Below, piece after piece: positions 15,305 through 20,662 of a stretch of 64,000 bases of DNA. Under the pieces are notes generated by a model that worked only from the letters and a program-made list of their open reading frames with translations, was not told the origin of the DNA and made no database searches. A program made the position numbers and the translations under genes. The stretch is from Fibrobacter sp. (GTDB lineage Bacteria; Fibrobacterota; Fibrobacteria; Fibrobacterales; Fibrobacteraceae). The stretch covers positions 186,001 through 250,000 of the forward strand of contig JAFPWY010000013.1 in NCBI GenBank assembly GCA_017412605.1, given 5' to 3'. Each line of letters opens with the position of its first letter. Positions within the stretch are counted from its first letter, which is position 1.

Positions 15305-15350
15305 TTGTGTGTTTTGGGGGAATCCCCTTGATTACGGAATTGGAAACGAA

Positions 15351-16445
15351 ATGGATATTGGTGCGCTGCATTTTCAGAATCCCGAAGCCTTCTGGCTGCT
15401 AGTCTTTGTCCCTATTCTTGTTGTGCTTTACATTTACCGCAATAGGCGCCGCAAAAGCACTATCAAGTTCCCTGCGCTTTCCATTGCCAAGAAGGCTGTT
15501 CCCAGCCGCCGTGTCCGTCTGAGACATATTGTTCCGGCCTTGCGACTTTTGGCCCTCAGCTGCTTTGTTATAGCGCTTGCACGCCCGCAAAATGCGATGG
15601 AGGTGGAATACACCTCTACCGATGGCGTCGACATCATGCTCGCCCTGGACGTGTCGGGCTCCATGGGTACGCTTGACATGCTGACCCGTGCCGAACAGGC
15701 CAAACTTGGCGTGATGAACGCGGAACGCCTGCTCAAGAGCGGCGATTACTGGAAGTATAGCCGCTTGGGGTATGCCAAGGAGGTCATTGCGGACTTTATC
15801 CAGAAACGTCATAGCGACCGCATCGGTCTTTCCGTGTTTGCCGGGCGCTCCTTTACCCAGTGCCCGCTGACATTGGATTATGGCTCCCTGCTCGAGATCC
15901 TTTCGGCTGTGAACGATTCTACAGCCACGGGCAATGGAACGGCGATTGGCGATGGACTCATGAACTCGCTCGCCCGTATAAAGAAGTCTACTGCGAAGTC
16001 CCGTGTTGTCGTGCTCCTCACGGACGGTAAGGACAATGCGAGCCTTGTTTCGCCCCTGCATGCTGCGGATGTGGCCAAGGCGTTGGGCGTGAAGGTCTAC
16101 ACCGTCGGCGTGGGCAAGAAGAAAGGCAAGATTCTGGGCTTCCAGCAAAATCCCTGGACGGGCGAAATTTCGTGGGCGGAAAGGGATATTACCCCCGAGG
16201 AAGGCATCGACGAAGAAATGCTCAAGGGCATCGCCCAGAAAACGGGAGGTCGCTTCTATCGTGCCGAGAACAGGGAAGAGCTGGAAAACATCTATTCCGA
16301 AATCGACGAACTCGAAAAGACCGAGATAGAGACGGTTGCTTATGCCCGTTATTCGGAAAAGTTCTATCCGTGGCTATTGATTGGCGCTTTGCTTATTTTG
16401 CTTGAACTCCTGCTTGCCAATACGCGCTTCGTCAGGATCCCCTAA
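15351..16445 (+). CDS. BatA-like VWA-domain membrane protein
   Basis: 364 residues from ATG 15351; a GTG at 15309 would only add 14 unlikely residues. Two N-terminal hydrophobic segments (about 12-30 and 58-78) carry the family motif ALARPQ just before the VWA domain. The MIDAS site DVSGS is present, with a downstream LLTDGKDN. A final transmembrane helix lies near 340-358. Bat proteins (Bacteroides aerotolerance type) are thought to act with MoxR ATPases at the cell envelope; none is in the window. Its paralogue lies at 17868 with a reversed gene between. The stop is 1 nt from the stop of that convergent gene. Confidence 0.88.
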   Translation: MDIGALHFQNPEAFWLLVFVPILVVLYIYRNRRRKSTIKFPALSIAKKAVPSRRVRLRHIVPALRLLALSCFVIALARPQNAMEVEYTSTDGVDIMLALDVSGSMGTLDMLTRAEQAKLGVMNAERLLKSGDYWKYSRLGYAKEVIADFIQKRHSDRIGLSVFAGRSFTQCPLTLDYGSLLEILSAVNDSTATGNGTAIGDGLMNSLARIKKSTAKSRVVVLLTDGKDNASLVSPLHAADVAKALGVKVYTVGVGKKKGKILGFQQNPWTGEISWAERDITPEEGIDEEMLKGIAQKTGGRFYRAENREELENIYSEIDELEKTEIETVAYARYSEKFYPWLLIGALLILLELLLANTRFVRIP

Positions 16446-16446
16446 T

Positions 16447-17601
16447 CTAGGGCTCGAAACCATTTTTTTCGTATAGCGACGTTGTCGGCTTGAAGCAGTT
16501 GTTCTTGGTGTCATCCAGGAATTCGATGACGTTGTTCACGCCCGGCTTGCCGAACTCAGAATAATTGATGCTGAATGTTATCGGCCATGGCGCAAGGCTT
16601 TGCAGCCTAGCGGTGTTGCTCGTAGCGATGAGCATGTTGCAGAAGGCTTCTACGTCGTTCCATGTCTTTTTTTCGAGGACGATGGCAAAGGAATGCTTCT
16701 GGTAGTGGGCCAGGAACATGTTGTCGCTGGTCATGCGCGCTCTCAGGAAGTCGGCGAATGCGATGACGATGGCCTCTACCTTTTTCTTGCCAAGCTTGCG
16801 GCGGATGTGGCGCATGTTGTCAAGCGTAATGGTCAACAGGAAAAGCCTCTGTTCCGATGTCAGGTCTGCTGTCTTGTCGCGAAGGAAATTGTTGAGCCTA
16901 CGCTCGTTATTGAGGCCGGTCAGGTGGTCCATCGTGATGAGCGTGCTTTGTTGAGTGATGTGGATGTGCAACAGCACCAGGGTGATGACCGGCGTGACAA
17001 TGGGAATTTCCAGCCTTTGCAGGGCTATTTGGATAAGGATGGCCACTACGGGGAGGACCATGATCCAGCACAAGTATTGCTCCTGTCTCCAGCCCGTCTT
17101 GGTGAAGTTCCTGTGGGCTGACCTGAAAGAAATGACGCTCGCCATTGCGATGTAGAAAATGCAGATGGAGTTTGTAATCGCCCACAGTTCGGGAATGTTG
17201 AACTCCTTGGGACTTCCCGGCTGGAGCTGATAGATGCGTGTTACGCAGTACAGGATGCCCATGACGAGCGGAATCGTGATGGGAATGGCATATTTGCGGA
17301 AATGGTAGGCGCTCCCGTATATCTTGTAATGGACGAAAAGGTTCCAAAGGTAGGGAATAAACTGCGTTATGGCGGCGGTGAGCACGACAATGACGTACTT
17401 GATGTCCGGGTTGTTTATTCTTTCTGGGAATTGGAGCTTGCCGACGATGTCCAGGAACGTTTCCGCAATCATCAAGATGAGGATCTTCTTGAACGTGCGC
17501 TCTTCGGGAAACTGCAGTAGCGAGATACGGTACTGGTATAGGACCAGTAACAGGATGGCTATGCAGCAGATGCCTATTTCTATCAGCGCGATGTTGTGCA
17601 T
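16447..17601 (-). CDS. Membrane protein with degenerate GGDEF domain
   Basis: 384 residues: an N-terminal membrane region of about six to seven helices (1-220) followed by a domain that starts like a diguanylate cyclase (DHLTGLNNERRLN) but lacks any GGDEF/GGEEF active-site motif. The corresponding position reads AHYQKHSFAIVL. It is therefore probably not an active c-di-GMP synthase and may be a sensor, an allosteric partner or a pseudo-enzyme. It lies on the minus strand between two plus-strand VWA genes and converges on the first with 1 nt spacing. Confidence 0.75.
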   Translation of the reverse strand: MHNIALIEIGICCIAILLLVLYQYRISLLQFPEERTFKKILILMIAETFLDIVGKLQFPERINNPDIKYVIVVLTAAITQFIPYLWNLFVHYKIYGSAYHFRKYAIPITIPLVMGILYCVTRIYQLQPGSPKEFNIPELWAITNSICIFYIAMASVISFRSAHRNFTKTGWRQEQYLCWIMVLPVVAILIQIALQRLEIPIVTPVITLVLLHIHITQQSTLITMDHLTGLNNERRLNNFLRDKTADLTSEQRLFLLTITLDNMRHIRRKLGKKKVEAIVIAFADFLRARMTSDNMFLAHYQKHSFAIVLEKKTWNDVEAFCNMLIATSNTARLQSLAPWPITFSINYSEFGKPGVNNVIEFLDDTKNNCFKPTTSLYEKNGFEP

Positions 17602-17867: not shown

Positions 17868-18896
17868 ATGCGATTTGCCGAACCCGACTTTTTGTGGTGC
17901 CTCTTTACGCTGCCGCTGTTCGCCCTGCTGTTTGTCTACGCCTATCATCGCCGCAAGAAACTTGCAGCCCGGTTCGTCTCCCTCTCGATGCTTCCCAAGC
18001 TTTCTACGTCGGTGTCCCCTTGGCGGCGCCTGACAAAGATGTTGCTGCTTTTGCTCGCGCTTGCGTTCCTGTTTGTTGCGCTGGCCCGTCCGCAGTGGGG
18101 ACACAAGATGGAGCATATCGAGCGCAGGGGCCTGGATCTTGTGCTGTTGCAGGACATTTCCCTGTCCATGCTAGCGGAGGATATCAAGCCGAACCGTCTT
18201 GTGCGTTCGCGCCACGAGATTGCCGCCTTCCTGGAATCGCTTTCGGGTGACCGAGTGGGCCTGGTAGCGTTCAGCGGCGAGGCTCAGGTAATGGTACCGC
18301 TCACGCTCGATTACGGTACCGTGCAGATGATGCTGCAAGAACTGAATCCGGGATGGCTGATGCCGGGCACGAACCTTGAGGCTGCCATCCGCAAGGGTAT
18401 GCAGCTGTTCAAGAATTCCGGCGGCGCCGGGAAGTATTCCGTGATGATCTTGATGAGCGACGGTGAAGAACTCGAAGCCGAAGCGGTGAACGCGGCGAAG
18501 GAAGCCGCCGAACTCGGAATCAGGATTTATACGGTGGGCATCGGTTCCCGCGAGGGTGTGCCCATACCGGTGAAGACCAAGAACGGGGAAGTCGCCTATA
18601 AGAAGGATATGCAGGGCAATATCGTCACGACGCGCCTCGAGGACGGGACGCTCCAGGAAATTGCCAACGTGACCGGTGGACTGTACTTCTATGCGAACCC
18701 GAGCGAGTTCCAGCTGCAGAAGGTGCTGACCGAAATCGCTACGCTCGAAAAGAAGGACCAGGCGACGGACCGCATGGAAAACTACCAGGACCGCTACCAG
18801 ATATTCCTGGGCCTTGCGGCGCTCCTGTTCCTTGTGGAAGCGCTTGTTTCCGAACGCGGCCGCCGTCGGCGCCAGCTTGCCGGCAGGTTCAGCTAG
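17868..18896 (+). CDS. BatB-like VWA-domain membrane protein
   Basis: 342 residues, AGGAGA SD 6 nt before ATG. Same plan as the 15351 protein: two N-terminal hydrophobic segments, ALARPQ, VWA domain, C-terminal transmembrane helix (about 307-325). The MIDAS is altered: where DxSxS is expected it reads QDISLS, and the later motif is LMSDGEE. This is a common BatA/BatB-family arrangement. A TATATTCTGG promoter-like box lies at 17814-17823. Envelope stress or aerotolerance role by family; the MoxR partner is absent here. Confidence 0.87.
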   Translation: MRFAEPDFLWCLFTLPLFALLFVYAYHRRKKLAARFVSLSMLPKLSTSVSPWRRLTKMLLLLLALAFLFVALARPQWGHKMEHIERRGLDLVLLQDISLSMLAEDIKPNRLVRSRHEIAAFLESLSGDRVGLVAFSGEAQVMVPLTLDYGTVQMMLQELNPGWLMPGTNLEAAIRKGMQLFKNSGGAGKYSVMILMSDGEELEAEAVNAAKEAAELGIRIYTVGIGSREGVPIPVKTKNGEVAYKKDMQGNIVTTRLEDGTLQEIANVTGGLYFYANPSEFQLQKVLTEIATLEKKDQATDRMENYQDRYQIFLGLAALLFLVEALVSERGRRRRQLAGRFS

Positions 18897-18904
18897 TATA
18901 TACA

Positions 18905-19040
18905 AGAAGACCCAGTGCTGCGGGCACTGGGCTCCTAGGGAAGATAGATAAAAGCCTCCCGGGTGGGTTTGACTCTTGAGAGTCGGGCGGGCCGAGCGAA
19001 CTCGGCGACCGATGTTGTATCCACCAGGAAGGCTCATTAA
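18905..19040 (-). ncRNA. Unidentified structured RNA-like element
   Basis: In the intergenic region between the BatB-type and M16-like genes, a 16-position stem with two mismatches (18953-18968 with 19019-19034) encloses two perfect hairpins: 18971-18984 (loop TTGA) and 18991-19006 (loop CGAA). A further 8-bp perfect hairpin lies at 18911-18931. On the minus strand a TATATTC box (about 19043-19049) lies just upstream, the long stem ends in TTTTATC, and the distal hairpin ends in a T-rich tail, as for a short transcript of about 130 nt. Orientation is therefore inferred as minus. It does not match tRNA, tmRNA, SRP, RNase P or 6S hallmarks known to me. Confidence 0.5.
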
Positions 19041-19147
19041 TGAATATACGATGTTTTTTGGTGTTGGGACGATAAAAATATCGAATCGATACTCCAATTT
19101 GGATTGATAGGTATTTTGTGCCGAATCATTTGCTATTTTCTAGCCAA

Positions 19148-20662
19148 ATGCGTAAGTTTGTATCGTTTTCCGCTATTGCCGCGCTGGCTCTGGCTGCGTG
19201 TTCCGGGGCGCCTGCTCCCGAGACTTCGGCTGGGGAGGCCAGCCCCCGTGTCGCCGCCCAGGATTCTGCGGTGACTCCCGCTCCCGTGGCTTCCGCCGCT
19301 TCTGCTGTACCGGCAAGTTACAGGGACATCGCTTTCCCCGAGTTCCGCTATGTGGCCCCGTACCCGAAGGATTTCAGGGTGCAGGTGTCCGACAGCGTTA
19401 CGGGCTATGTCGTGGTAGACCGGACGCTTCCGCTCGTGAACTTTACCGTGTTTTTCGACGAGCCTCATGAGTCCCTCGGCTTGAAGGACGAGGCCGCCAG
19501 CTCCATGGTCGGAGCCATGTTCCGTCGTGGTGGCGCGGCAGGGATTTCCGCACGCGCACTGGACGATTCTCTCGAGTTTGTCAGTGCCGGAATCACGACA
19601 TCGACAGGAACGTTCACCTCGTCGTTTGACATCGACTGCCTTTCGAAGGATTTTCCGGCGATGCTTTCCTTGGTGAAGAAAATCGTGAAGGAGCCCGCGT
19701 TCGACAAGGACCAACTCGAAATCGTGAAGGCGAACTTCGTGACCAGTTACGACCGTCGCTACGATACTCCGGGGAAGGTCTTGCAGGCTTTGCAGATGAA
19801 GGTCAACTATGCTCCTTCGCCCAGGCTCTGGGATGCAAATGCCAAGGAATACTCCAAGGTCTCCGTTGCCGACGTGAAGCGCCTTTCGAAGGGACTCTTC
19901 TCGTCTCGCCGCATCATATTCGCCTTGTCTGGCGACATCGACCGCGATTCCGCGATGGCCGTGCTCAAGGATTTCTTTGCCGACCTCCCGACGGCTCCGG
20001 TCACCGTGAAGGAACCGCCGAAACCGCTCGAGTTCCTGCGTAAGCCGGGTGTGTATGTGGTGGACCGCGACATTACCCAGGCGAACATCGTGATGAACCA
20101 GCCGTTCGTGCGCAGGCCCCATCCCGATTACTATCCGGCCGCCGTTGCAAGCTTTATCCTTGGCGGGGGGAGCTTCTCTAGCCGCCTGATGAACCGCGTG
20201 CGTAGCGACGAGGGCCTGGCCTATAGCGTCTACAGCGCAGTCGGAAACGAATACCGCGACACGGCGCTCACGACCATCGCGTTGCAGACCAAGGTGGAAA
20301 CTGTCGATTTCGCCATCAAGCTTGTGTTCGAGGAAGTCGACAAGCTGGCGAAGGAAGGGCCGACCGACGACGAACTGGCCCAGGCCAAGAAGTCCCTGGT
20401 CGAAAGTTTGCCGAGCCTGTTCGATTCTCCGGAAGCGACAGCTGTCATCTTTGCGAAGGGTGAACTTTTGGGTAAGACCGACGATCATTACTTGGAATAT
20501 GTAAAGGAAATCAACGCTGTGACTGCCGAGCAGGTGAAGGCGATGATTGCCAAGTACTTCAGTCGCGACAAGATGACGATTTCCATTGTTGGACCGGTGG
20601 CGAAGTTCGATGCTCTGAAACCTTTCACGGTCCTTTCTTTGGACAGTCTTGAATTCAGGTAG
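19148..20662 (+). CDS. M16-family peptidase-like lipoprotein lacking the zinc motif
   Basis: 504 residues from ATG 19148, where a lipoprotein signal begins (LALAACS, acylated Cys near 17). The body has the two-lobed M16 (insulinase/processing peptidase) plan: an N-terminal lobe with the NFTVFFDEP strand and a C-terminal lobe with RSDEGLAYSVYS, the conserved Arg/Tyr region. The HxxEH zinc-binding motif expected in the first lobe is replaced by AASSMVG, so the protein is probably non-catalytic alone. In bacteria such subunits usually pair with a zinc-bearing partner, which is not seen within the window. Confidence 0.82.
   Translation: MRKFVSFSAIAALALAACSGAPAPETSAGEASPRVAAQDSAVTPAPVASAASAVPASYRDIAFPEFRYVAPYPKDFRVQVSDSVTGYVVVDRTLPLVNFTVFFDEPHESLGLKDEAASSMVGAMFRRGGAAGISARALDDSLEFVSAGITTSTGTFTSSFDIDCLSKDFPAMLSLVKKIVKEPAFDKDQLEIVKANFVTSYDRRYDTPGKVLQALQMKVNYAPSPRLWDANAKEYSKVSVADVKRLSKGLFSSRRIIFALSGDIDRDSAMAVLKDFFADLPTAPVTVKEPPKPLEFLRKPGVYVVDRDITQANIVMNQPFVRRPHPDYYPAAVASFILGGGSFSSRLMNRVRSDEGLAYSVYSAVGNEYRDTALTTIALQTKVETVDFAIKLVFEEVDKLAKEGPTDDELAQAKKSLVESLPSLFDSPEATAVIFAKGELLGKTDDHYLEYVKEINAVTAEQVKAMIAKYFSRDKMTISIVGPVAKFDALKPFTVLSLDSLEFR

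Follow-up and report, generated by a model that had tools for sequence, protein, structure and literature searches.

The window, by which is meant the whole 64,000-nt stretch of a Fibrobacter sp. contig (JAFPWY010000013.1) that was analysed, contains an intergenic gap between the gene of a VWA/BatA-type (BatB) protein and that of an M16 peptidase. A folded stretch lies in this gap at 18905–19040. The comparisons described below indicate that it is most likely a minus-strand gene for a small RNA, absent from Rfam 15 and from the literature searched, and present once per genome in most Fibrobacter species. Fibrobacter is a gut bacterium and a main cellulose degrader of the rumen. A minus-strand open reading frame at 18171–19097 runs antisense to BatB. 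Elsewhere in the window, a membrane protein gene on the minus strand (16447–17601) is oriented opposite to the two VWA/Bat-type genes that flank it (15309–16445 and 17868–18896).

On the minus strand, a long imperfect stem is formed by pairing of GAGCCTTCCTGGTGG with CCACCCGGGAGGCTT, and it encloses two perfect hairpins, GCCGAG-TTCG-CTCGGC (18991–19006) and GACTC-TCAA-GAGTC, both with 4-nt loops. Another perfect hairpin, CCCAGTGC/GCACTGGG (18911–18931), adjoins the long stem and is followed on its 3′ side by the T-rich tail TCTTCTTG. All of these elements, together with a TATATTC box in front of them, had been described in an earlier reading of the sequence alone, and all are present in the DNA. 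The core consists of 84 nt arranged as a three-way junction, in which a closing stem of ∼15 bp surrounds the two hairpins, and the terminator hairpin comes after it (Table 1).

Table 1. Parts of the putative RNA gene, in the order in which they would be read on the minus strand.
Feature	Position in window	Strand	Remarks
Upstream palindrome ATCCAAATTGGAG	19092–19104	−	Putative regulator site, centre at −63; genus consensus TTCCAAnTTGGAA
−10 box TATATT	19043–19048	−	Found in 64/64 homologs; spacing to the core exactly 7 nt in 61
Conserved RNA core, three-way junction	18952–19035	−	Predicted +1 is the G at 19035
P1 closing stem, 5′ strand	19021–19035	−	Partner is 18952–18966
P2 hairpin, CGGU..GCCG with inner CCGAG-UUCG-CUCGG	18988–19011	−	Most variable stem
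P3 hairpin, GACUC-UCAA-GAGUC	18971–18984	−	Pairs kept in 99.5% (alignment A5) and 100% (alignment A7)
P1 closing stem, 3′ strand	18952–18966	−	Followed by TTTT in the window
Pyrimidine-rich single-stranded linker UUAUCUAUCUUCCCU	18937–18951	−	Read from the sequence
Terminator hairpin and U-rich tail	18905–18936	−	Terminator-like site at 18910–18932 (scan)

The predicted fold of region 18900–19060 has a z value of −5.80 on the minus strand, where none of 200 shuffled sequences was equally stable, and of −2.60 on the plus strand, where 4 of 200 were. Generic scans are weak when taken alone; no consensus sigma-70 promoter was detected, and terminator-like sites numbered 1 against 0.7 expected. 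The true proof that the element is non-random is comparative.

A DNA search of 80 genomes of the genus gave matches in 19, one of which (L027) was due to chance and was dropped. The distant homologs found in this search retain the P1 strands and the −10 box. A covariance model built from eight sequences (R1) detected the RNA in 64 of the 80 genomes, or 33 of the 40 that are of good quality, and always at a single locus; a second match in one genome (G036) corresponds to this locus read on the opposite strand. A wider model (R2) recovered the identical 64 genomes, which amount to 64 of 111 in the family and 64 of 167 in the phylum, and it found the RNA in none of the 87 phylum genomes outside the genus. 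The remaining 16 genus genomes stayed negative in a relaxed search, with weak matches in two (best E 0.209), and therefore the RNA is not essential. Named records from a pattern scan were mostly Fibrobacter. When R2 was applied to 14 pattern matches from other organisms, it gave a single weak match, in Prevotella (L147; 22 bits, E 0.0032), which from its sequence is taken for chance.

Secondary structure is conserved among the homologs. When the 48 distinct cores were folded singly, 47 formed two or more hairpins inside a stem that pairs both ends in register, and the median z was −4.82 for the sense and −3.96 for the antisense direction, with the sense value lower in 38 cores. Covariation was assessed in two alignments. 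Alignment A5 contains 45 of the 48 distinct cores fitted to the model, and is thus biased towards it; L023/L024, L046 and L082 are omitted because of the E-value threshold or because antisense matches would enter. Alignment A7 contains 33 of the 48, aligned on sequence only, and omits 15 cores of a lineage marked by CCUCC motifs, in which sequence alignment misplaces P2. Because a further alignment, A4, included unwanted opposite-strand rows, a single row per locus, the first, was taken from it. In A5, 94.7% of cells pair and 14 of 28 pairs show changes on both sides, with a covariation score of 0.240 compared with 0.083 for shuffled and 0.014–0.090 for slid alignments. In A7, 92.8% of cells pair and both-side changes are found in 9 of 28 pairs versus 4.9 in shuffles; the count of further pair types (16) is not above that of the shuffles (16.6).

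The three stems contribute differently. P2 displays compensatory changes in all eight pairs counted on A5, and P3 shows UA/AU and GC/AU exchanges. In P1, 9 of the 15 pairs are invariant on A7 and therefore provide no covariation support, and two have changed on both sides. P1 as a whole is thus supported partly by pairing and partly by sequence conservation. Invariant segments are found in P1, in P3 and where the junction begins (GGUGGAU on A7); variation is greatest in the linker, in the 5′ junction and in the P2 loop, whose length ranges from 3 to about 30 nt.

At the level of transcription signals, the TATATT box keeps an almost constant distance from the core throughout the homologs (Table 1), and a promoter scan found no consensus −35 sequence. 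A run of at least five T residues directly follows P1 in 30 of the 64 homologs, and P1 therefore doubles as terminator in these; the window has TTTT instead. A downstream hairpin with a run of at least four T residues passes the script rule in 35 of 64, of which 31 are without the T-run at P1, and in all, 61 of 64 homologs have a terminator by this rule. The failures are the window, L010 and L042, in which hairpins are present with imperfect T tails. CUAUC-pyrimidine linkers akin to UUAUCUAUCUUCCCU are found only in homologs that have a separate terminator.

Conservation, covariation in the homologous loci, the fixed position of the −10 box and the terminators of nearly all homologs support the minus-strand small RNA gene proposed in the sequence-only reading, and the absence of covariation, there named as grounds for rejecting it, does not apply. 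The cloverleaf-like core in the same proposal is not upheld. The element has three arms and ARAGORN finds no tRNA or tmRNA, which it resembles in having several short arms around a junction. A protein-coding function is also unlikely; lengths differ between homologs by non-multiples of three and the stems covary. Transcription of the minus-strand gene is a prediction from these sequence signals.

The genomic neighbourhood of the RNA varies. Among the 64 homologs, both BatB and M16 adjoin the RNA in 48, M16 alone in three and neither gene in 12; the remaining homolog (L073) has M16 on the same strand, downstream of the RNA but behind the RNA's own T8 run. In the relocated copies that were checked, the upstream gene is biotin-synthase-like (radical SAM + BATS, L062) or ornithine-carbamoyltransferase-like (OTCase-like, L072). 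Conversely, M16 is present in 14 of the 16 genus genomes without the RNA, and at three of these loci (L101, L102 and L104) a BatB-type gene is adjacent and the gap has no visible RNA, which makes them natural empty sites. As the neighbourhood changes while the unit of promoter, RNA and terminator stays constant, the pattern argues for an autonomous gene whose RNA would act in trans. In L043–L071, the sequence GTACCC or GTATCC is often found 3′ of the T-run, at both genomic locations, and may be a leftover of a moved unit.

A palindrome lies upstream of the −10 box. Sequences like TTCCAAnTTGGAA are found 43 bp before TATATT in 62 of the 64 homologs, those that occupy a different genomic location included, and are centred at −63 in 59. 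Compared with TTCCAAnTTGGAA, the 64 palindromes have no mismatch in 16 cases, one in 21, two in 11 and three in 16; in 150-nt stretches drawn at random from these loci, zero or one mismatch was never found and two mismatches in 0.95%. The palindrome of the window has two mismatches, and those of the 18-genome CCUCC lineage mostly three. Exact copies of TTCCAAnTTGGAA are present in all 80 genus genomes, at 2–26 copies per genome, compared with 0–2 for a control pattern. The genome from which the window comes has six exact sites (control 0), located in L173 and L229–L233, and 30 sites with at most one mismatch (control 9); the palindrome loci overall are L161–L242.

The sites sampled for adjoining genes were all exact ones in five genomes (G000, G001, G003, G005 and G004, the last with 14 sites in addition to that of the RNA gene), seven of the 11 exact sites in G006, and individual sites from further genomes. 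In all five fully sampled genomes, the start of a PadR-family gene is located 15–55 nt 3′ of an exact palindrome. Other genes that adjoin sampled sites encode a sugar transporter, GH9 cellulases, GGDEF/EAL and HD-type response-regulator proteins, a pilin-like protein, a ribosome-hibernation-type protein and RelA/SpoT. On sequence grounds it is thus well supported that the RNA gene belongs to a palindrome regulon, and the TTCCAAnTTGGAA sites probably represent a global regulon of Fibrobacter. A regulator bound to the −63 palindrome probably controls the RNA gene. The PadR-family protein is the best candidate for this regulator, since the palindrome is present at its own gene; a point against the proposal is that members of this family usually act as repressors. 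Some sugar-transporter genes have a TATATT-like box 53–55 bp after the site, a distance longer by one helical turn than that in the RNA gene. No common spacing between site and −10 box stands out over 68 exact palindrome sites, which also counts against the proposal, and a constant class-I spacing was not found at them.

Known RNA families provide no identity for the element. Rfam 15, in which the sequence-only reading had suggested looking, gave no match at the gathering cut-off in the whole window or in 10 homologous loci. At a relaxed threshold, the region and its homologs showed matches of chance level that are far below the cut-offs (Afu_513, STnc340, STnc380 and others); for example, the fungal snoRNA Afu_513 (RF01514) scored 21.4 bits against a cut-off of 48. 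The element shares with trans-acting bacterial small RNAs an intergenic location, a promoter and a terminator of its own, a length of about 85–150 nt and the lack of a conserved reading frame. It differs from them in having no conserved free seed, in having both ends in one stem and in matching no Rfam family.

The layout of 6S RNA consists of a closing stem, an open junction with an unpaired 5′ strand, an apical stem and a small hairpin on the 3′ strand. The element resembles 6S RNA (RF00013) in its closing stem, open junction, apical stem, purine start and U-tail, but it is approximately half as long, with 6S RNAs of other families in the phylum at 162–187 nt, and its apical stem of about 8–11 bp counts against the likeness. 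The Rfam 6S model matches 22 of 167 phylum genomes, three of them over the cut-off, and none of the 111 genomes of the Fibrobacter family; the window's own genome is among those without an RF00013 match. A phylum 6S model (R3), made from 20 of the 22 matches, found none in the 111 family genomes, in a search that had no internal positive control. R3 did not match the window, and among the homologs it matched only L045, marginally (16.1 bits, E 0.2). The minus-strand RNA is not a recognised 6S RNA, and Fibrobacter is without a recognised 6S.

The gene unit, its fold, the position of the promoter, the palindrome and the conservation are supported by computation. The fuller proposal, that of an autonomous small non-coding RNA gene that is probably regulated, acts in trans and is likely recognised by a protein, is considered reasonably probable. 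According to this proposal, 18905–19048 would be transcribed from TATATT, starting at the G at 19035 and ending at the hairpin near 18905, to yield an RNA of about 130 nt. The first 84 nt would form the three-way junction, with the ends paired in P1 around P2 and P3. In other lineages, P1 and its T-run would themselves be the terminator, and the RNA would be only ∼85–110 nt in length. A regulator, perhaps the PadR-family protein, would bind the −63 palindrome and control the gene. The RNA would then act in trans through a protein that recognises the sequence-invariant parts of P1 and P3, and may couple the palindrome regulon to a response at the post-transcriptional or RNA polymerase level. 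The choice of protein binding over seed pairing is a tentative one, made with rather less than even confidence, because the loops and junctions, which are the segments a pairing RNA would use, vary, and positions in P1 and P3 are invariant.

A small RNA that acts by base pairing, and whose exposed C/U-rich stretches (CCUCC or the pyrimidine linker) would block translation by binding to the G-rich ribosome-binding sites of target mRNAs, is considered unlikely. It would account for the two unpaired CCUCC motifs, in the P2 loop and the linker, that are found in 18 of the 64 homologs and are kept there although the stem adjacent to the loop changes; several more homologs (L025, L036, L037, L038, L042, L055, L072 and L073) have one CCUCC that is mostly unpaired. 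However, CCUCC is missing from the RNA of the window and from many homologs, it is inside a stem in L045-type RNAs, and hardly any unpaired strand is left in homologs that end at P1. The junctions, P2 loop and linker vary, and no conserved single-stranded seed is found. In addition, a Shine-Dalgarno-like 5/6 match precedes 7 of 40 open reading frames in the window compared with 3.0 expected, and is thus barely enriched. Shine-Dalgarno blocking as a general mechanism is weakened by this low enrichment together with the patchy occurrence of CCUCC. That the RNA is a shortened form of 6S and binds RNA polymerase is improbable. The layout, the lack of a recognised 6S in the genus and the marginal R3 match of L045 are in keeping with it, but the RNA has about half the length of 6S with a short apical stem, the window gives no match to the 6S models, and the 6S search was equally empty in the genomes without the RNA, namely 16 of the genus and 31 others of the family.

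Function in cis is less probable again, and the relocated copies largely refute it. The element could be envisaged as a leader or riboswitch of M16 on the plus strand, as had been suggested from the sequence alone, or as an antisense RNA to the BatB or M16 messages, and in the window it does sit between both genes, 3′ to 3′ with BatB. However, 13 of 64 homologs have other neighbours, the RNA points away from M16 in 51 of 64, and the fold is stronger on the minus strand. M16 probably has a −10 box of its own beyond the element, a TATTTT at 19134–19139 that was found by eye 8 nt before the ATG at 19148. The gap contains several perfect inverted repeats, which might also suggest a repeat or mobile palindromic element of the REP or MITE type, but copy number refutes this and leaves it a negligible probability: the window's genome has one copy, the other ten matching places in it are chance matches of 14–24 nt, and other genomes have a single locus each.

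The preferred reading, that of an autonomous RNA gene, describes a small RNA gene of an ordinary kind that represents a new family and whose upstream regulatory site is clearer than expected. The literature searched contained no Fibrobacter small RNA, and the portions consulted of PMC2864571 and PMC9029176 yielded nothing on the minus-strand RNA. The predicted anatomy of this single-copy, genus-wide RNA is defined well enough for the design of probes, deletions and pull-down experiments. The genus-wide palindrome before genes for PadR, sugar transporter, GH9 cellulase and c-di-GMP enzymes renders the putative global regulon directly testable. One speculation, to which only a small probability is given, is that a miniature RNA that binds RNA polymerase or a regulator has replaced 6S, and that the TTCCAAnTTGGAA regulator switches it together with the sugar transporter, GH9 cellulase and c-di-GMP genes. 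If so, one small RNA would link cellulose and sugar status to global transcription.

An additional sequence feature is found in the biotin-synthase-linked lineage (L062 and its relatives), where an inverted repeat, TACCACTTTAGAAATAAAGTGGTA, overlaps the −10 box of the RNA gene. This repeat is possibly a second operator, or the terminator of the preceding gene.
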